This document shows, piece after piece, positions 41,473 through 51,964 of a stretch of 64,000 nucleotides of DNA. The position numbers were made by a program, and so were the translations under genes. This stretch comes from Brachybacterium ginsengisoli (GTDB lineage: Bacteria; Actinomycetota; Actinomycetes; Actinomycetales; Dermabacteraceae): NCBI RefSeq assembly GCF_002407065.1, contig NZ_CP023564.1:3410001-3474000 (forward strand), given 5' to 3'. The notes under the pieces were generated by a model. It made no database searches. It was not told the origin of the DNA and saw only the letters and a program-made list of their open reading frames with translations. Within the stretch, counting starts at the first letter, position 1, and every line of letters begins with the position of its first letter.

Positions 41473-42438
41473 TCAACGTTCTCCGGAAGGGCTCCCGTCC
41501 GCAGCGCACCTGTCGTCGTCTCCCTCGTCTCCGTCGTCCTGCCCGTCCTCCCAGTCCCAGCGCAGCCCGAGGGTCCCCGGCCCGAAGCGCGCCTCGCTGA
41601 CCTGCAGCCGGCCCCGATGATCCAGGCGGACGTCCGTGATCGACTCCCCGGACTCCGTGCGCTGGTAGCGATGGCAGTCCACCGGCCGACGGTCACCGCG
41701 GAACTCCACCTCGAGGAGCACGTCGTTGGATCGCCGCGGCAGGCTGTAGAGCACGGCGGTCACATCGGTCGCCCGGGCCCCCAGCTCGACCCGGTAGGCG
41801 AGCGAGGCGACCTGGCCGGCGTCGAGCGTCCCGTCGATCACGAACTCGACGCCGTAGACGCGGCGCTCCGGCCGATTCACCCGCCGCCCGATCGAGCACC
41901 CGTCGAGCGCCGTGAAGATCGGTGCGACGTTCGGCTCCGACTCCTCCAGGACGTACACGGCCGGCAGGCGGCACACCCCCGATTCGAGGGCCCGCACGAT
42001 CAGCCGGAAGTCGAAGCTCTGGCGCTCCCGGGCCGTGTCGATGACGGCGAGCTGATGGACCACCCGCTCGTGGGCGTACTGCTGGGCCAAGAGGAACCCC
42101 AGCTCCTCGAGCGCGTCATGGAACACCTCCTTGCTGGAGAGATGGCCGAGGTGATCCGCGGTCCGCACCGCGCGGCCCCGCAGGCGGGGCCCGCCGACCA
42201 GCTCGGCGAGCGACTCGGGTGATCTCCCCAGCAGCTCCTCCAGCGCCGCGATCACCCCCAGGGACTTCTCGCCGCTGGGAAGGCTCCTGCCGGACTGCCA
42301 GTTGCTCAGCGTGGCGACGCTGACCGGACGGTGCCGGGCCCGCAGCCGCTGGGAGATCGAGGTCAGTGTCAGGCCGCTCTGCACGATCGCCGCCCGCAGC
42401 TCCGCCGCGAACGCCCCACCCTCAGCAGCAGCCGTCAT
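41473..42438 (-). CDS. XRE-type HTH regulator with large unknown C-terminal domain
   Basis: 321 residues. The N-terminal ~75 residues form a Cro/CI helix-turn-helix (LTLTSISQRLRARHRPVSVATLSNWQSGRSLP). The remaining 240 residues have a mixed alpha/beta domain (SFDFRLIVRALESGVCRLPAVYVLEESEPNVAPIF and VEFVIDGTLDAGQVASLAYRVELG) and end in a very acidic tail (DGQDDGDEGDDD). I do not recognise the C-terminal family. ATG 42438 is preferred to the longer frame. It is divergent from the oligopeptidase pair and may control it through the inverted repeat at 42501-42513. Confidence 0.78.
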   Translation of the reverse strand: MTAAAEGGAFAAELRAAIVQSGLTLTSISQRLRARHRPVSVATLSNWQSGRSLPSGEKSLGVIAALEELLGRSPESLAELVGGPRLRGRAVRTADHLGHLSSKEVFHDALEELGFLLAQQYAHERVVHQLAVIDTARERQSFDFRLIVRALESGVCRLPAVYVLEESEPNVAPIFTALDGCSIGRRVNRPERRVYGVEFVIDGTLDAGQVASLAYRVELGARATDVTAVLYSLPRRSNDVLLEVEFRGDRRPVDCHRYQRTESGESITDVRLDHRGRLQVSEARFGPGTLGLRWDWEDGQDDGDEGDDDRCAADGSPSGER

Positions 42439-42500
42439 GCCCCCAGCATCCCTCCACGGACTCCGAACGGCCACCCTGATCAGATCGCGGTCGCTGCCGT

Positions 42501-42538
42501 TCAGTATTTCTGACAAACCTCTGAAAAGGCCACAGTAG
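42501..42538 (+). promoter_or_regulatory. Candidate promoter and operator upstream of the oligopeptidase pair
   Basis: CTGACA (42510-42515), a 17-bp spacer and CAGTAG (42533-42538). TCAG-TATTT-CTGA (42501-42513) overlaps the -35 as an inverted repeat, possibly the XRE operator. The next gene starts about 285 nt downstream, implying a long 5' UTR. Confidence 0.4.
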
Positions 42539-42829
42539 CCTCTATGACGGGCCTCACAGACGGGTCCGGGAGGAGTCTACGGAGAAGAGGGCAGATGGGG
42601 GACCTCGTGGACGATGCGGCACCGGGGAGGACCCTGCGCCGCCGCGCCCGGCCCGGCCGCACCGTCTGTCCGATCGCCACAGGATCCTTCCCGATCGGCG
42701 AAGACGCCGACAGGGCATCGCCCCGTGTCGACAGAGGTGTCAGCAGTCCGCTCCGCACCTGACGAACCGATGAGACCGCCCCTCGCCCCACTCGCGGCGG
42801 CTCGGCCTCCCGAGAGGAAAGCCGTACCC
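42539..42829 (+). other. Long leader region before the oligopeptidase pair, no gene seen
   Basis: About 290 bases between the candidate promoter and ATG 42830. A 72-codon open frame starts at 42544, but it is Arg/Gly-rich and unlike a protein. I see no convincing riboswitch fold. Confidence 0.4.
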
Positions 42830-44968
42830 ATGACTCAGCACATCACCGCCTCCCCGAGGGTGCCTTCCTCCCGGGCCGCACAGCGATCGCCGCTGCTCCC
42901 GCCCGCCCCCGTGCCCCGCCCCCTGGATCGGACGCTGTTCGGTGACACCGTCCACGTCCCCTATCGCTGGCTGCGTGACTACCGTTCCAGCGAGGTCACC
43001 GCGCACTTCGCCGCCGAGAACGCCTACACCGACGCGCGGACCGCGCATCTGGCGCCCCTGATCTCCGACCTCCAGGCGGCCGCCGACGCCCCCGTCTCCC
43101 CCGTCGGCCTGACCGCCCCTGTGCTCCTCGACGGCTGGTGGTACATCGATCGCTGCGACCCCGTCGGTGGCTCCACCCTCTCGCGCGTGCGCGACCACGA
43201 ACACCTGCACGGTCCGGCCGGCGTGCCCGTGATCGAGCAGGGGCACCTCCTGGAGGGCGAGCAGATCCTGGTCGAGGACTGCCGGACGATGATCGGATTC
43301 GCCGTCTCCCCGGACAGCCGCCTGCTCGCCCGCGCCGAGGCGGCCCTCGGCGGATGCCGGCTGATCGTGACCGAGGCCGCGACCGGCGAGGTCCTCGACA
43401 GCGCCGTCGAGGGCGCCGGCCCGGATCTCGTCTTCTCCGCCGACTCCCAGCACCTGCTCCACACCCGTCTGGACGACCTGGGGCGTCGCCACGAGGTACG
43501 CAGCCACCGTCTGGGCACCACGGCCCGCGAGGACGCCCTCCTGCTCGAGGAGCCGGACCACTGGGCGCAGCTCGAGCTCACCCGTTCACGGGACGGCTCC
43601 GCGCTGCTGATCCGCTCCGACTCGCCCCGGGGCGGCGAGGTCTGGCTGACCGACCTCGCCGCGACGGCCGGCCCGCCGCGATCGCTCACCGGTCGCGTCA
43701 CCGGCACCACGCCGCCGCTCCTCGAGCATGCCGGGGATCGGCTGCTGGTGATCCACGAGGACCGCGGGACCCGCCGGAGCGTGCTCAGCGAGACGAGCCT
43801 CGAGACCACCGGCGCCCTGACGGACCTGCAGACGCTGCTCACCGCCCGGGAGGGCGAGCACTTCGAGTCCGTCGAGGCGTTCGCCGGGGTCATCGCTCTC
43901 CAGCTGCGTGATCAGGGCGTCCCCGCGGTGCGCCTGATCCCCCGCCGTGAGGACGGCTCCCTCGACGCCGGTGCCGTGCAGGTCGCGGGGCCGGGCGGGG
44001 AGCTGGATGCCGTGCGCCTCGAGCCCGCACCCGCCTGGGGGAGCCGACGGATCCGCTGCCGACTGGACGGCTTCCTCACCCCGGGAACGCTGGTCGAGCA
44101 CGACCTGGAGACCGGCGAGAGCATCGAGCTGCTGCGCGAGGAGCACCCCGGGTTCGATCCCGAGCGATACGTGGCGCACCGGCTCTGGGCGACCTCGCCG
44201 GACGGCACCCTCGTGCCGATCTCGCTGCTCGCTCCGAGGGACCTGCCCCGCGATGGCAGCGCTCCCGCGGTGCTCTTCGGCAACGGCGCGTTCGGCACCA
44301 CCACCGATCCGCGGCTGCGCCCCGAGTTCCGGACCTTCGCCGACCGCGGCGTCGTGGTGGCCATCGCCCATGTGCGCGGCGGCGGCGAGATGGGCCCGCA
44401 GTGGCACCGACAGGGGCGCGGCGCGCACAAGCAGAACTCCTTCGCCGATCTCGTCGCCTGCGCCGACCTCCTGGTGGAGACCGGCTGGGTCTCGCCGGAT
44501 CGGATCGGACTCATCGGCCACGGCGCCGGCGGCCTGCTCGCGGCGGGCGCGTCGAACCTCGCCCCGGACCGCTTCCGTGCCCTCCTGACCGTGATGCCCC
44601 TGGCGGATCCGCTCGAGGCGCTGCTCGATCCGGACGTGATGCTCACGCTCGAGGAGTGGGCCGAGTGGGGCGACCCCGCCGAGGACGAGGCGACCTACCG
44701 CGACCTGCGCGGGTACACCCCCACGGAGAACATCCGCGCGGAGCAGTACCCGGCGGTCTACGCCTGGACGGCGCACGAGGGGACCGAGGTCCCACCGGGG
44801 TGCGCCGCGACCTGGATCGCGACCCTGCGTGACACGGTCACCTCGAGCCCCGAGGAGCGACCGATCCTGCTGCGCACCATGCCCACGCCGGGCACCGGAG
44901 GCGACCCGCGGAGGGAGGGCGTGGCCTGGCTCCTGGACCAGCTGGGCGCGACTACCCTCGGAGCATGA
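42830..44968 (+). CDS. Oligopeptidase B-like protein lacking the catalytic triad (pseudopeptidase)
   Basis: 712 residues: an N-terminal seven-bladed propeller (about 70-430) and a C-terminal alpha/beta-hydrolase domain of the S9A family. It aligns along its length with the next gene at a constant offset of 16 residues at all three active-site positions. There the nucleophile Ser is Gly565 (GHGAGG instead of GRSAGG), the Asp is Gly651 (HEGTEV for LNDTRV) and the His is Thr689 (PGTGG for AGHGG). Other structural motifs remain (FGTTTDPRLRPEF, HVRGGGEMGPQWH, NLAPDRF). It cannot be a serine peptidase by the known mechanism. A regulatory or substrate-binding partner of the next gene is inferred. 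GAGAGGAAA precedes ATG 42830. Confidence 0.9.
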   Translation: MTQHITASPRVPSSRAAQRSPLLPPAPVPRPLDRTLFGDTVHVPYRWLRDYRSSEVTAHFAAENAYTDARTAHLAPLISDLQAAADAPVSPVGLTAPVLLDGWWYIDRCDPVGGSTLSRVRDHEHLHGPAGVPVIEQGHLLEGEQILVEDCRTMIGFAVSPDSRLLARAEAALGGCRLIVTEAATGEVLDSAVEGAGPDLVFSADSQHLLHTRLDDLGRRHEVRSHRLGTTAREDALLLEEPDHWAQLELTRSRDGSALLIRSDSPRGGEVWLTDLAATAGPPRSLTGRVTGTTPPLLEHAGDRLLVIHEDRGTRRSVLSETSLETTGALTDLQTLLTAREGEHFESVEAFAGVIALQLRDQGVPAVRLIPRREDGSLDAGAVQVAGPGGELDAVRLEPAPAWGSRRIRCRLDGFLTPGTLVEHDLETGESIELLREEHPGFDPERYVAHRLWATSPDGTLVPISLLAPRDLPRDGSAPAVLFGNGAFGTTTDPRLRPEFRTFADRGVVVAIAHVRGGGEMGPQWHRQGRGAHKQNSFADLVACADLLVETGWVSPDRIGLIGHGAGGLLAAGASNLAPDRFRALLTVMPLADPLEALLDPDVMLTLEEWAEWGDPAEDEATYRDLRGYTPTENIRAEQYPAVYAWTAHEGTEVPPGCAATWIATLRDTVTSSPEERPILLRTMPTPGTGGDPRREGVAWLLDQLGATTLGA

Positions 44969-47076
44969 CCGCCGAGCTCCCTGCCGCCCCGACCCCCGAG
45001 CACCGTCCCACCGAGCGGATCTTCCACGGCGACACCGTGGTGGACCCCTTCGAGTGGATGCGGGACAAGACCGATCCCGAGGTGATCGCCCACCTCGAGG
45101 CGGAGAACGCCTACGCCGACGCGCGCACCGCCCACCTCGACGGGCTCCGCGCCGCGCTGGTGGAGGAGTTCGTGGGCCACACGCAGGAGACCGACCTGTC
45201 GGTGCCCGTGCGCCGCGGCGACTGGTGGTACATCACCCGCACCACCGCCGGGGACGACTACCCGAAGTTCACCCGCGTCGCCGACGCCGGCGCCCTCCCG
45301 CAGGTCGAGCCGGGCGTGATGCTCGAGGGCGAGCAGGTGCTGCTCGACGCCCAGGCCGAGGCCGCCGGCGCCGAGTTCTACTCGCTCGGCGGGCTCGCCC
45401 CCTCCCCCGACCACACCCTGTTCGCCTCCGCGGTCGACACCGCGGGCGACGAGCGCTTCACCCTCCGCGTCACCGACATCGCCTCCGGCGAGGTCATCGA
45501 CGAGGCCGTGACCGGCACCGGCTACGGCCTCGCGTTCTCCGCCGACCAGGAGTGGCTGTTCTACGCCCGGGTCGACGACGCCTGGCGCCAGCACCAGATC
45601 TGGCGCCACCGCATCGGGAGCACGGCGAGCGAGGACGTGCTGGTCATCGAGGAGCCCGACGAGCGCTTCATGATCGGGTTCGACCGCTCGCGCGACGGCT
45701 CGACACTGGTGATCCAGGCCGGCTCCACCTCCACCACCGAGGCCTGGACGCTGGATCTGACGGACCCGACGTCGGCCCCCGTGCCCGCCGGCGGCCGACG
45801 CGACGGCGTGGACTACGCCCTCGAGCACGCCGGGGACCGCCTGCTGGTGGTCCACAACGACGGCCACCAGGGCTTCGCGCTCGCCCAGGCCCCGCTCGAC
45901 GCCCCCCACCAGTGGGAGGAGCTGCTGGTCGCGGCCGACGGCGAGCGCCTGCTCGCGGTCGAGGCCTTCGCCGGCTTCGTCGCCCTTGAGCTGCGCAGCG
46001 GCGGACTCGCCTCGGTGCGGCTGATCCCGCGTGCGGCCGACGGGTCCCTGCTGGTCGCCGAGGCCGCCGACCTCACCCACGGCGGCGAGCTGGACACCGT
46101 CGAGCTCGACACCAACCCCAACTGGGACCAGACCACGGTGCGCTACCAGCTCACCAGCATGCTCACCCCGCCCACCGTCGCCGAGCGCGAGGTCGCCACC
46201 GGCGAGAGCAGCGTCCTGCGCGTCACGCCGGTGCCGAACTACGACCCGTCGCTGTACGTCGAGCGGCGCGAGTGGGCCACCGCGGAGGACGGCACCGCGA
46301 TCCCGCTGAGCGTCGTGGCACGCCGCGACGTCGCCGCCGACGGCACCGCGCCCGGCTACCTCTACGGCTACGGCTCCTACGAGGTCTCCATCGACCCGTC
46401 GTTCGTGCCCACCCGGCTGTCCCTGCTGGATCGCGGCGTGGTCATCGCGATCGCGCACGTGCGCGGCGGCGGCGAGATGGGCCGCGACTGGTACGAGCAC
46501 GGGAAGCTGCTCGAGAAGAAGAACTCCTTCAGCGACTTCGTGGCCGCGGCCGCGCACCTCACCGACTCCGGCCTGGTCGCCGCAGGCCGGCTCGGGGCGG
46601 AGGGGCGCAGCGCGGGCGGTCTGCTCATGGGCGGCATCGCGAACCTCGCCCCCGAGCGGTTCCGGGCCGTCATCGCAGGAGTGCCGTTCGTCGATGCGCT
46701 CACCACGATCCTGGACCCCAGCCTGCCGCTGACCGTGGGCGAGTGGGAGGAATGGGGCGACCCGCTGCACGATGCGGAGGTGTACGCGTACATGAAGGAG
46801 TACACGCCGTACGAGAACATCACCGCGGTCGAGTACCCGGCGATCTTCGCCTCCACCTCCCTGAACGACACCCGCGTGTTCTTCGTCGAGCCCGCCAAGT
46901 GGGTCGCGCGCCTGCGCGAGACGGTCACCTCGGACCAGGCGGAGCGGCCCATCCTGTTCCGCTGCGAGATGGTCGCCGGGCACGGCGGGCGCTCGGGCCG
47001 CTACCGCAAGTGGGAGCAGCGCGCCGACGAGCTGGCCTGGCTGCTCGACCAGCTGGGAGCCTCCGAGCGGGTCTGA
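44965..47076 (+). CDS. ptrB: Oligopeptidase B (S9A prolyl oligopeptidase family), active form
   Basis: 703 residues. It cleaves short peptides after basic residues and is cytoplasmic. The triad is intact: Ser549 in EGRSAGGLL, Asp635 in LNDTRVFFVEPAKW and His673 in VAGHGGRSGRYRKWEQ. The N-terminal FEWMRDKTDPEVIAHLEAENAYAD and HVRGGGEMGRDWYEHGKLLEKKNSF are family hallmarks. ATG 44965 overlaps the stop of the catalytically dead paralogue by 4 bp (ATGA), so the two products are made together, probably in equal amounts. Confidence 0.95.
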   Translation: MTAELPAAPTPEHRPTERIFHGDTVVDPFEWMRDKTDPEVIAHLEAENAYADARTAHLDGLRAALVEEFVGHTQETDLSVPVRRGDWWYITRTTAGDDYPKFTRVADAGALPQVEPGVMLEGEQVLLDAQAEAAGAEFYSLGGLAPSPDHTLFASAVDTAGDERFTLRVTDIASGEVIDEAVTGTGYGLAFSADQEWLFYARVDDAWRQHQIWRHRIGSTASEDVLVIEEPDERFMIGFDRSRDGSTLVIQAGSTSTTEAWTLDLTDPTSAPVPAGGRRDGVDYALEHAGDRLLVVHNDGHQGFALAQAPLDAPHQWEELLVAADGERLLAVEAFAGFVALELRSGGLASVRLIPRAADGSLLVAEAADLTHGGELDTVELDTNPNWDQTTVRYQLTSMLTPPTVAEREVATGESSVLRVTPVPNYDPSLYVERREWATAEDGTAIPLSVVARRDVAADGTAPGYLYGYGSYEVSIDPSFVPTRLSLLDRGVVIAIAHVRGGGEMGRDWYEHGKLLEKKNSFSDFVAAAAHLTDSGLVAAGRLGAEGRSAGGLLMGGIANLAPERFRAVIAGVPFVDALTTILDPSLPLTVGEWEEWGDPLHDAEVYAYMKEYTPYENITAVEYPAIFASTSLNDTRVFFVEPAKWVARLRETVTSDQAERPILFRCEMVAGHGGRSGRYRKWEQRADELAWLLDQLGASERV

Positions 47077-47369: not shown

Positions 47370-49421
47370 TCAGGACCAGCTGACCTCGTCGCCCACGGCG
47401 TTGGTGTAGACGAGGGCCGGCTGGTCCCCCAGCTCGCCCCGATAGTGCAGCTCGAGCGACGTGCACTCCTTCGGCTCGAGGAGGACGGGCGGCTGCTCCT
47501 CGGTGATGACCGGGGTCAGCTCGGTCCCGCCCTCGCCGCGCAGCGCGTAGTCCGAGCTCTGGACGGTGTTCTGGACCTCGCGCTCCGCGGTCTCCCCGGC
47601 GGGAGTCTTCCCCAGGCTGTCGATGCCCCCGCAGACGGTCACGTCGACGATGAACTCCCCCTCCCCGCCAGCGGAGGAGGGAGAAGTGGCGGGGACGGGC
47701 TGGTGCACGGTGATGTCCGTGCCGTTGGTGAGCTCCACCGTCTCGGTCCACGACGGGGAGCGCTCGATCCAGGCGGGGCCGCTGTTCTGGTGGTGGATCA
47801 TGACGCCGACGAACCCGAAGAACAGCAGACCGGGGCTGAGAACGAGCAGGCACCCGAAAAGGGCCCCGGGGAGACCGGAGAAGTCCCGACGGTGGGACCA
47901 TCCCCGCTGGGTCACCCGCGGCACCCCGTGGAGCGCCGCGTCCAGATCCCGCGTGAACGCCTTCCTCCCGACGAGCGCGGACGACGACACACGGATCAGC
48001 TCTCCCGTGTGGGCGAGCAGCCACACCGCACCCGGGGGCTGGTCCCACACGGCGATCACCCGGGTGAGGTCCACGGTCGCCGTGTCCGGGAGCTCCGCGC
48101 GCGGCGAGACGTCATTGACCATCCCGGAGCCGCTGACATGGAGGGTCGTGAGGGAGAGCCGCGCCCGCGTGGAAGTGTCCCCGTTCCCCAACATCGCCGA
48201 CCGCATCGAGCCACGGTAGGTCTCCGCCGGCGCCGAGGGATCCTCCTCGACGGGCCCGACCACCGGCAGTGCGGACAGTCGCGCGTGCTCGCGGAGGGAG
48301 AGCAGTGCCGGGTCCAGGCAGATGTGGAGGCTGCGCTGGGCCGCGACGAGCGCCTCGTGGACGCCCTGCGCGGTCGGCTCCATCGCGGGAGACAGGCCGT
48401 GCACGCGCTGCTCCCGCTCGCAGCGCGCCGAGGAGATGCTGTCCGCGATCGCCTCCTCCACGGCGGATCCGGGGAGGTCGTCCAGGTCCTGGAGCAGAGC
48501 GGTGAACAGGTCGGGCCGCCGCTCCGGCGCGAGGAATGTCCGGAAGCTGAGCACGACGTGCAGACCCTCCCCCATGCCCGTCATCCGGCTCGTGACGTCG
48601 ACGGGCTCTGAGCGTTCCAGGGCGAGGGTGCCGTCGAGGGTGCGGTCGAGGGTGCGCACGAGGCAGCTGCGCACGAGCTCCGCGGCCACGATCCCGTCGG
48701 CGGTGCGCGGCACCATCATCGACAGCACCTCGTGACCCCGTTCCGGAATCGGCACCACCGAGGCACGGTTCCCTCCCTGCGGCCAGGCCTCGGGGTCCCG
48801 GCGCCAGCGGGGCGTGCCCTCGGCCCAGCGGCGCCCCAGCCCCGCACCGCGCAGCGGGCCGACGGCGAAGGCCGCGCCGACCAGCGACTCCTGATCCGTC
48901 CAGAACACGCAGGGCACGTCACCGCGGCGAGGGTCGAGCTCGCGCAGCAGCCGGCGCGCGGCATCCTGCGTGCCCTCGGTCTCGAACCGGAAGAGCTGCA
49001 GCGCGGCACCGCTCGGGCCGGTCCGCAGCAGCACGTCCTCGAGCCACGGCAGTTCGGAGACGTGCCCGGGGGTCAGGCCGGTGGTGTCGAGGGTGCTCGT
49101 GAACAGGTCGGGCAGGCCGGCCCAGGCGGCCCGGACCCCCTCCAGCTCACCCCGGAGGCTCAGGCCGCAGACGTCGGAGCCGATCTTGACCTCCGCCCGG
49201 ACTGCGCCCGGGCGCCCCAGCTCCAGGGCCAGCGCCTCGAGCGCGAGCACCAGCGAGCCGGCGTGCTCGACGCGTTCGTCGAGTGTGCCGCGACCCCAGA
49301 GCACGCCGATCTCGACCTCTCCCGTCGCCGTGCTCTGCTCCGGCTCGACCAGCTGCCAGTTCTCGCCCTGCCAGGCCCTCGTCACCGGGTCATGGGGCCT
49401 GCGGGAGGGAGGGTGGAGCAC
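47370..49421 (-). CDS. Membrane protein with possible degenerate M16 peptidase region
   Basis: 683 residues. The first ~430 residues are soluble. LWGRGTLDERVEHAGSLVLALEALALE has the layout of an M16 (insulinase) active-site helix, but the zinc HxxEH would read LxxEA, so it would be inactive. Repeating alpha/beta units continue. Around 455-500 is a small beta domain (VIAVWDQPPGAVWLLAHTGELIRVSSSALVG). One membrane helix (about 512-540, LPGALFGCLLVLSPGLLFFGFVGVMI) follows. The last ~145 residues would be outside and contain two cysteines. The M16 relation is a weak inference. GTG 49421 is assumed. Confidence 0.65.
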   Translation of the reverse strand: MLHPPSRRPHDPVTRAWQGENWQLVEPEQSTATGEVEIGVLWGRGTLDERVEHAGSLVLALEALALELGRPGAVRAEVKIGSDVCGLSLRGELEGVRAAWAGLPDLFTSTLDTTGLTPGHVSELPWLEDVLLRTGPSGAALQLFRFETEGTQDAARRLLRELDPRRGDVPCVFWTDQESLVGAAFAVGPLRGAGLGRRWAEGTPRWRRDPEAWPQGGNRASVVPIPERGHEVLSMMVPRTADGIVAAELVRSCLVRTLDRTLDGTLALERSEPVDVTSRMTGMGEGLHVVLSFRTFLAPERRPDLFTALLQDLDDLPGSAVEEAIADSISSARCEREQRVHGLSPAMEPTAQGVHEALVAAQRSLHICLDPALLSLREHARLSALPVVGPVEEDPSAPAETYRGSMRSAMLGNGDTSTRARLSLTTLHVSGSGMVNDVSPRAELPDTATVDLTRVIAVWDQPPGAVWLLAHTGELIRVSSSALVGRKAFTRDLDAALHGVPRVTQRGWSHRRDFSGLPGALFGCLLVLSPGLLFFGFVGVMIHHQNSGPAWIERSPSWTETVELTNGTDITVHQPVPATSPSSAGGEGEFIVDVTVCGGIDSLGKTPAGETAEREVQNTVQSSDYALRGEGGTELTPVITEEQPPVLLEPKECTSLELHYRGELGDQPALVYTNAVGDEVSWS

Positions 49422-50363: not shown

Positions 50364-50417
50364 CTCAGAACGCCGGGATGACTCAGAACGCCGGGATGAC
50401 TCAGAACGCCGGGATGA
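50364..50417. repeat. 18-bp tandem repeat (x3) duplicating the metQ 3' end
   Basis: Three identical-length units of CTCAGAACGCCGGGATGA. On the minus strand each codes VIPAF-stop, so the last five codons and the stop of metQ have been copied twice more downstream, in frame. Confidence 0.92.
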
Positions 50418-51246
50418 CCGAGCCGTCGGTGTAGGTGGTCTCGATGAACTTCTTGACCTCGGCGCTGTGCAGCAGCTCGTCGAGCTTGACGATGCCGGCG
50501 TTGTCCTTGTCCGCCGCGCGGCACACGAGCATGTTCGAGTAGGGGCTGCCCTCGCCCGCCTCCAGCACGATGGCCTCCTCGGACGGCTTCAGGCCGGCCT
50601 CGAGGGCGTAGTTTCCGTTGACCACGCCGGCGGCGAAGTCCGAGAGGGTGCGCGGGATCTGCGCGGCCTCGATCTCGGTGAACGTCAGGTTCTTGGGGTT
50701 GTCCTGGATGTCGGCGGTGGTCGCGTCGACGGACTCCACGCCCTCGGCGAGGGTGATCACGTCGTTGTCGGCCAGCAGGCTCAGGCCGCGGCCGCGGTTG
50801 GCGGGGTCGCTCGAGATCGCGATCTCGTCGCCGTCCTTCAGCTCGTCGAGGCTCTTGATGGTCTCCGAGTACAGGCCCATCGGCTCGATGTGCACACCCT
50901 CGAAGCCGTGGAACTCGTAGCCCTTCTCCTCGGTCTGGGACTCCAGGAAGTTGGGGGTCTGGTAGAAGTTCGCGTCGAGGTCGCCGTCGTTCAGCGCCTG
51001 GTTCGGGATCTGGTAGTCGGTGTAGGGCGTGATGGTCAGCGTGAGGCCGGCGTCCGCGGCGAGCTCGTCCTGGATGTACTGGAGGATCTCGGCGTGGGGC
51101 TTGGGCGAGGCGCCCACGGCGATCTCGGTGACGCCGCCCTCCTCCGTGGGGCCCTCGGGGCCGCCGGCGCCGCAGGCGGCGAGGGCGAGCGCGCCGAGGC
51201 CGGCGCCGGAGAGGGTCAGCAGGGTGCGGCGGGGGAATGTAGTCAT
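50401..51246 (-). CDS. metQ: Methionine ABC transporter substrate-binding lipoprotein, MetQ
   Basis: 281 residues. A twin-Arg-free signal peptide ends in the lipobox ALAAC, so the mature protein is lipid-anchored outside. The NlpA/MetQ domain contains EIAVGASPKPHAEILQYI, YTDYQIPNQALNDGDLDANFYQTPNFLE, IAISSDPANRGRGLSLL and the conserved VNGNYALEAGL. It binds L- or D-methionine. It is the last gene of metN-metI-metQ, with a 31-bp gap after metI. Confidence 0.95.
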   Translation of the reverse strand: MTTFPRRTLLTLSGAGLGALALAACGAGGPEGPTEEGGVTEIAVGASPKPHAEILQYIQDELAADAGLTLTITPYTDYQIPNQALNDGDLDANFYQTPNFLESQTEEKGYEFHGFEGVHIEPMGLYSETIKSLDELKDGDEIAISSDPANRGRGLSLLADNDVITLAEGVESVDATTADIQDNPKNLTFTEIEAAQIPRTLSDFAAGVVNGNYALEAGLKPSEEAIVLEAGEGSPYSNMLVCRAADKDNAGIVKLDELLHSAEVKKFIETTYTDGSVIPAF

Positions 51247-51277
51247 GGGAGCTCCTGGGTGAAGGGGTGGGAGAGGA

Positions 51278-51964
51278 TCAGCGGGCACGGTGGTCGACGA
51301 CCCGGGCGAGCCAGGTGCCGAGGGCCTGGATGGCGATGACCAGGGCGACCAGCAGCAGCACGGTCGCCACCATCACCACGTTGTCGTAGCTCTGGTAGCC
51401 CATGCGGGTGGCGAGGTCGCCGAGGCCCTTGCCGCCCACCACACCGGCCATGGCGGTGTAGCCGACGACGGCGATGGTGGTGGTGGTCAGCGAGCCGATG
51501 ATGCCGGGCAGCGCCTCGGGCAGGAGCACCTGGCGGATGACCTGCCAGCGGGTGGCGCCCATCATCTGGGTCGCCTCGATCTTGCCCGCGGCGATCTCGC
51601 GCAGGTTGATCTCGATCAGACGGGCGAGGAACGGGATCGCGGAGACCGTCAACGCGAACATCGCGGCGTTCGGCCCGGTCACGCGGCCCACCACGAAGCG
51701 GGTCACGGGGATCAGCGCGATGATGAGGATGATGAACGGGAAGGACCTGCCCACGTTCACCACGAAGCCCACCACGCGGTTCACCCAGCGGGCGAGCGAG
51801 CCGTGGGACTTCTCCGTCTCGAACAGCAGGATGCCCAGCGGCAGCCCGATCAGGGTCGCGAACAGCATCGTGCCGGCGGTCATGTACAGCGTGATCAGCG
51901 CGTTGGACCACAGGCTGGTGTTGGAGTCCCAGGTCGTGAAGACCGGGTTCTGGAGCCACTCCAT
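51278..51964 (-). CDS. metI: Methionine ABC transporter permease, MetI
   Basis: 228 residues, five membrane segments. LITLYMTAGTMLFATLIGLPLGILLF at the start, RSFPFIILIIALIPVTRFVVG and the EAA loop QVLLPEALPGIIGSLTTTTIAVVGYTAMAGVVGGKGLGDLA are diagnostic of MetI. The ATG overlaps the metN stop by one base (TGATG), so the two are coupled. Confidence 0.95.
   Translation of the reverse strand: MEWLQNPVFTTWDSNTSLWSNALITLYMTAGTMLFATLIGLPLGILLFETEKSHGSLARWVNRVVGFVVNVGRSFPFIILIIALIPVTRFVVGRVTGPNAAMFALTVSAIPFLARLIEINLREIAAGKIEATQMMGATRWQVIRQVLLPEALPGIIGSLTTTTIAVVGYTAMAGVVGGKGLGDLATRMGYQSYDNVVMVATVLLLVALVIAIQALGTWLARVVDHRAR

Follow-up and report, generated by a model that had tools for sequence, protein, structure and literature searches.

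A predicted pseudo-oligopeptidase B, kept under purifying selection, is encoded beside an intact paralogue in Brachybacterium

Introduction

DPP6 and DPP10 of animals are described as inactive peptidases of subfamily S9B that serve as ancillary subunits of Kv4 channels (PMC4350108, PMC4873792). In the account given of DPP10 the catalytic serine has been replaced by glycine and the role of the protein is non-enzymatic (PMC4350108). Among prokaryotes, a survey of serine proteases reports 42 inactive homologues among 966 proteins (PMC2605481). For oligopeptidase B (OpB), the closed state of the Trypanosoma brucei enzyme is described as one in which Glu172 of the propeller holds Arg650 (PMC3827171); this Arg/Glu switch is said not to fit the OpB of Serratia proteamaculans, and bacterial OpB may differ (PMC8533160). 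A search of the open-licence literature found no description of an inactive OpB paralogue beside its parent.

Here we describe such a pair in Brachybacterium ginsengisoli. The window, by which we mean the whole stretch of 64,000 nucleotides that was analysed (contig NZ_CP023564.1, 3,410,001 to 3,474,000), is part of a closed genome of 3.95 Mb, and gene and codon positions in this genome are given as positions in the window.

Results

Two adjoining genes on the forward strand encode related proteins. The first, D (42830..44968, +), encodes a pseudo-oligopeptidase B of 712 amino acids in which the triad is lost, and the second, A (44965..47076, +), an oligopeptidase B of 703 amino acids with the triad Ser549/Asp635/His673 intact. 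An earlier sequence-only reading of this DNA had placed the pair here, with an intact frame of 712 codons for D and a constant offset of 16 residues between the active-site columns. Its coordinates proved correct on checking, the translation of D has 712 residues, and Ser549, Asp635 and His673 of A align with Gly565, Gly651 and Thr689 of D. The two proteins are 44% identical across 707 columns by BLASTP (46% by MAFFT), and both match the Peptidase_S9_N and Peptidase_S9 domains. The NCBIfam equivalog PRK10115 has a cut-off of 1313 bits, and both proteins score below it (D 222.5, A 478.8). The solved structure closest to D by sequence is 4bp8 (E 8.1e-65), and D groups with OpB, by sequence and in the tree, rather than with the S9B subfamily of DPP6 and DPP10. 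The S9 domains and a whole-length match in fold place D within the OpB family, and judged by these comparisons it is a paralogue of OpB.

An AlphaFold2 model of D, made from a 10-row alignment, has a mean pLDDT of 74.7 and a pTM of 0.73; A modelled likewise gave 79.5 and 0.81. Foldseek matches the D model to OpB from end to end (7zjz, E 3.5e-49; 4bp9, 2.0e-45). Comparison with S9A structures bears out the view that the fold persists, with propeller and hydrolase domain retained throughout the model. Four active-site loops of the D model have low confidence (486-494, 601-612, 649-655 and 686-690). We rejected this as a peculiarity of D, the A model being low at the matching loops (471-475, 587-593, 635-638 and 671-680). 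The hydrolase loop 518-533 has low confidence in the D model alone.

For the active site we compared 18 copies of D, comprising 17 intact ones and one without its 5' part (G013), with 43 copies of A, 34 from the genus and nine from other genera. The catalytic serine is replaced by glycine in 18 of 18 D copies (Gly565 codon, 44522..44524, +). The aspartate is replaced by glycine in 17 (Gly651, 44780..44782, +) and by histidine in one (G036), and the histidine, replaced by Thr689 in the window (44894..44896, +), is present in none of the 18, the loop around it being shortened. The corresponding codons of A are those of Ser549 (46609..46611, +), Asp635 (46867..46869, +) and His673 (46981..46983, +), and all 43 A copies keep all three residues. 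Loss of the Ser, Asp and His columns, each in 18/18 D and 0/43 A, is too regular to be chance. The sequence-only reading had allowed that the loss might be a recent mutation, with the triad kept by homologues in related species; no D copy keeps any part of it, so this does not apply. The substrate-side motifs that it had found missing are indeed gone from D, where EPAKW has become CAATW and GHGGRSGR has become GTGG followed by an 8-column gap.

Residues described for T. brucei OpB (PMC3827171) were mapped by hand through the alignment to 4bp8 and counted in 17 D and 43 A. The oxyanion Tyr (Tyr482) is present in 43/43 A and in 1/17 D. The equivalent of the active-site Arg650 is Arg in every A; in D it is Asp in 12 copies, Glu in three, Gly in one and Gln in one. 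The equivalent of Glu172, the propeller latch, is Glu in 43/43 A and a gap in 17/17 D. On the substrate side, Glu609 of D (44654..44656, +), equivalent to the T. brucei Glu607 that binds the P1 Arg, is kept in 17/17, while the equivalent of Glu655, likewise assigned to the P1 Arg, is Glu in 7/17. The position of T. brucei Glu609, another acidic residue of the pocket, is Glu in just 1/17 D. The equivalent of Phe589 is Phe in the 43 A, and Leu (15), Met (1) or Gln (1) in D. On the triad, and on the oxyanion Tyr and active-site Arg, D falls outside the enzyme-type OpB. By this mapping the catalytic groups and the closing switch of D are gone and one substrate Glu is fixed.

Thirty-three positions are fixed in D (at least 16/17) to a residue other than that of A. 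With nearness taken as distance along the sequence and not in space, 14 of the 33 are no more than 8 residues from an active-site or substrate position, a range that takes in 129 of 691 positions (p 0.0014). Once the active-site and substrate positions themselves are excluded, 11 of 30 are near (p 0.016). Sites of D conserved as in A are near in 34 of 159 cases, and the 33 differ from these as well (Fisher p 0.012). The D-specific residues include Cys176 and His526, fixed in 17/17 D, and Cys544, in 16/17, which would be in keeping with D having gained some other reaction through a different set of residues. However, His is presumably usual at the 526 position in prolyl oligopeptidases and His526 is not clearly new, and on an unsystematic look no known catalytic arrangement was recognised in D. 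We hold a new catalysis to be the most improbable of the readings considered here.

The 38 genus genomes searched, the window genome among them, all gave an S9 match of some kind, and copies of D and A were taken from 44 stretches (35 of the genus, nine of other genera of the family). An intact D is present in 17 of the 38. One further genome (G013) has a D without its 5' part, the adjoining HTH gene being absent too. In another (G027) D has frame breaks, and A and other genes are broken as well, which indicates an assembly fault. D was not found in the other 19, three of which (G015, G026 and G030) also yielded no full-length A. In the family search, nine genomes of five other genera had one OpB each, plus more distant S9 matches. 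In the order, matches at E <= 1e-60 were found in 143 of 297 genomes; 19 of these belong to Brachybacterium, and the 124 outside it had one match each, at most the best 3 candidates per genome being scored. A search of the phylum with A matched 73 of 396 genomes (best 2 candidates per genome scored), with two matches in G000 and in G663, those of G663 being fragments on two contigs. The tandem order, proposed earlier as something to look for across actinobacterial genomes, recurs within the genus but was not seen in the sampled relatives outside it. Nor was a second full-length OpB seen in those relatives, where a very diverged copy could be missed.

In a tree of 60 proteins D forms a single clade (support 100/100) that branches from among the live OpB copies of the genus, with a stem length of 1.07 changes per site. 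One subclade of A has 19 members: the copies of the 17 genomes with an intact D, that of G002, in which no D was found, and that of G013 with its cut D. The most likely history is therefore that D was present by the time of this subclade's ancestor and was lost or cut at least twice within it. Uniting D with the 19 live subclade copies in one clade costs next to nothing relative to the best tree (lnL 0.48 lower, p 0.448), and the test also fails to reject a topology that sets D outside every live copy in the genus (lnL 18.9 lower, p-AU 0.108). D is a long branch, and its origin from elsewhere appears the less likely course; D would have arisen by tandem duplication of the genus's own OpB.

The stop of D and the start of A overlap by ATGA (44965..44968, +), as the sequence-only reading had noted when it concluded that the dead and the live protein are produced jointly. 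The overlap of 4 bases occurs in 10 of 18 pairs, and elsewhere the genes are separated by 16 bases (G004), by 74 to 129 bases (six pairs) or by 3636 bases (G014). The interval in G014 (L068, 7586-10441) is occupied on the opposite strand by genes for an ABC transporter and a TipA-like MerR regulator. Within the last codons of D, 12 bases 5' of the start of A, stands a -10-like box, TACCCT (44953..44958, +). The pattern TANNNT is found at -12/-13 before A in 30/34 genus copies and 9/9 copies of other genera, and in all 18 D-A pairs, lying inside the D gene in 10 of them. In three more copies it stands at -16, probably because the start was called a few bases too far 5', and in G017 no box precedes the called start. 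At the other offsets from -8 to -21 it does not occur before A, and its background in the 44 stretches is 0.0008 per position. Most genomes without D also carry the box before A. Before D itself, TANNNT is found in 0/17 at all offsets from -8 to -21.

In Actinobacteria, a box placed near -12 is a reported mark of leaderless genes (PMC3160421). The box of A suggests that this gene has a leaderless promoter of its own, and A is thus probably independent of D for its expression. Given that box, we rejected the overlap as a ground for inferring joint expression, which is further undercut by the eight pairs that lack it; read-through transcription from D into A may nonetheless occur. The pair carries a warning for the reading of genomes, as an ATGA overlap here appears to come without downstream dependence and with a promoter signal inside the upstream gene.

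D is preceded by a purine-rich leader, GAGAGGAAAG (42812..42821, +), which is Shine-Dalgarno-like in the window; leaders of D in the 17 genomes contain GAAAG in 14 and AGGA in eight. Divergent from D lies an HTH_31-like gene (41473..42516, -), whose score of 24.5 bits is below the Pfam cut-off of 27. It adjoins D in 16 of the 17 intact-D genomes, is also found near A in G002 and G022, and is a possible candidate regulator of D. A palindrome between the two genes, spotted by eye in some genomes as an operator, was dropped after a shuffle test in which at least 3 of 20 block shuffles reached it in 16/17 genomes. In G020 none of 20 did, but there the repeat differs and is placed elsewhere.

On the other side of the pair, a frame of 683 amino acids (47370-49421, -) has no Pfam match and no counterpart in the other 43 stretches compared. 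Further along lie MetQ and MetI genes (50401-51964, -). The identity of MetQ to its genus relatives is bimodal, at about 50-58% or 64-86%, whereas that of the neighbouring MetN keeps to about 73-87%; this is the pattern that a swap of MetQ and MetI in some species would leave.

Under the codon model GY+F3X4 the omega of the 17 D is 0.141, a value that, like all those given here, is approximate, as even the closest pairs have many synonymous changes (YN00 dS 0.5 and 0.8). Setting omega to 1 worsens the fit for D by 1659 log-likelihood units. The 17 A of the same genomes have an omega of about 0.06 (0.061-0.062), and A in 15 genus genomes outside the subclade 0.070. By halves, omega is 0.131 for the propeller and 0.133 for the hydrolase part of D, and 0.066 and 0.048 for those of A. 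The codon tree of the 17 genomes has a length of 12.9 for D vs 5.5 for A. Mean identity is 54.6% (propeller) and 63.6% (hydrolase) within D, and 81.4% and 88.6% within A. Pairwise YN00 dN/dS is 0.090 for D and 0.050 for A between G009 and G023, and 0.097 and 0.028 between G003 and G037. Constraint on D is weaker than on A, yet far from neutral in both halves, and the dN/dS near 1 by which simple decay was to be recognised is not what we find, D being at about 0.14. By the loss of residues across its orthologues and purifying selection at the protein level, D classes as a conserved pseudopeptidase.

That D evolves about twice as fast as A also fits partial relaxation. D might even be a remnant that is losing its function under weak constraint, its 3' end for example being held because it carries the promoter of A; the loss in G002, the cut in G013 and the position of the A box inside D in 10/18 pairs would agree with this. 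Yet 17 D frames are intact, omega is far below 1 and alike in propeller and hydrolase, and 33 sites have been newly fixed in D, and a promoter at the 3' end is unable to account for constraint across 712 codons. We regard a relaxed remnant as improbable.

D could alternatively be a heteromeric regulator that pairs with A by way of the hydrolase domains and so inhibits, activates or stabilises the live enzyme. In 17 of 18 pairs the two genes are near neighbours (gap -4 to 129 bases), and D is best conserved in its hydrolase half, an order that A shares. T. brucei OpB is reported to dimerise through its hydrolase domains with cross salt bridges Asp621-Arg633 (PMC3827171), and at these positions a Glu of A faces an Arg of D on one side in 5/17 pairs. 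On the other side, however, D is never acidic, and A of the window genome has Ala608 and Thr620, while gamma-proteobacterial OpB is described as monomeric (PMC8533160). Nine columns are special to the A of D-bearing genomes, but all nine read the same in G002, where D is missing, and in G013, where it is cut, which suggests shared descent. Omega of A hardly differs between genomes with D (0.062) and those without (0.070), the genes stand 3636 bases apart in G014, and A has its own -10-like box. Hence among the special A columns, omega and the salt-bridge positions we found no clear co-adaptation of A to D, and we judge a heteromeric regulator unlikely.

Discussion

The reading that we favour, with a probability of roughly 0.6, is that D is a selected non-catalytic binding protein and not an obligate part of A. 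The promoter signal of A weighs for a separate binding role of D over that of a bound subunit, and so does A itself, which exhibits neither a change in constraint nor private co-changes with D. Against the favoured reading, the absence of D in G002 and its truncation in G013, within its own subclade, mark it as dispensable. D would be transcribed on a separate message that starts with a leader and may be controlled by the divergent HTH gene, and A would keep its own leaderless promoter. With its two-domain shell and one substrate Glu retained, and the former active-site Arg mostly acidic, D may bind, but not hydrolyse, a small basic ligand or peptide, or it may dock on a partner. Its role would then be that of a sensor, a trap or a scaffold, and not that of an obligate A subunit. 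Binding in the cavity as the mechanism of D is a tentative proposal, and one that we are inclined to doubt.

A more particular version has OpB duplicated in place and D turned into a dedicated non-cutting receptor or trap, its cavity emptied and more acidic, for the basic peptides that A would cut, the pair thereby setting peptide signals. The Glu at the T. brucei Glu609 position in 1/17 D and the loss of Phe589 in 17/17 make the binding of basic peptides doubtful, and we consider this version rather unlikely. The pair offers a natural experiment on what roles the OpB shell has besides cutting. Controls are at hand in species that have the pair, species with the live gene alone, one species in which the twin is lost and one in which it is cut.

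Among known systems D is closest to OpB of subfamily S9A (S. proteamaculans, 7zjz/7ne7; T. brucei, 4bp8/4bp9), with which it shares the two-domain fold over the whole length and one P1 Glu; it differs in having no equivalents of the Ser, Asp, His, Arg650 and Glu172, the oxyanion Tyr being lost in 16/17. Human prolyl endopeptidase-like protein (PREPL) is a related S9 protein for which non-hydrolytic functions are described, but it is reported to retain hydrolase activity and Ser559, whereas D is without the triad (PMC11385081). Tb927.9.12980 of T. brucei is an S9-clan pseudopeptidase predicted, as D is, by sequence; it is however BEM46-like and not OpB, and the OpB-like genes of T. brucei are listed in the same source as peptidases (PMC4376731). 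The inactive homologues in the prokaryotic serine protease survey are of the same general kind as D, their catalytic residues being absent, but that survey is described as covering five families, among them S1, S8, S12 and S14 (PMC2605481). Pseudopeptidases are therefore already known as a kind, and an inactive OpB twin beside its live parent would be a new form of it.

The nearest parallel in function is with DPP6 and DPP10, which like D combine a propeller with a hydrolase domain. With the Ser-to-Gly change described for DPP10, a sister subfamily has undergone an event of the same kind, and D shows in bacteria this change familiar from an animal protein. They differ in that DPP6 and DPP10 are animal S9B proteins on ion channels, while D is a bacterial protein of S9A type beside a live relative. 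As a non-cutting binding protein D is, by this analogy, most likely comparable to DPP6 and DPP10, and if D is indeed a peptide receptor or trap, it would be the counterpart, in bacterial S9A, of what DPP6 and DPP10 represent, a peptidase turned regulator.
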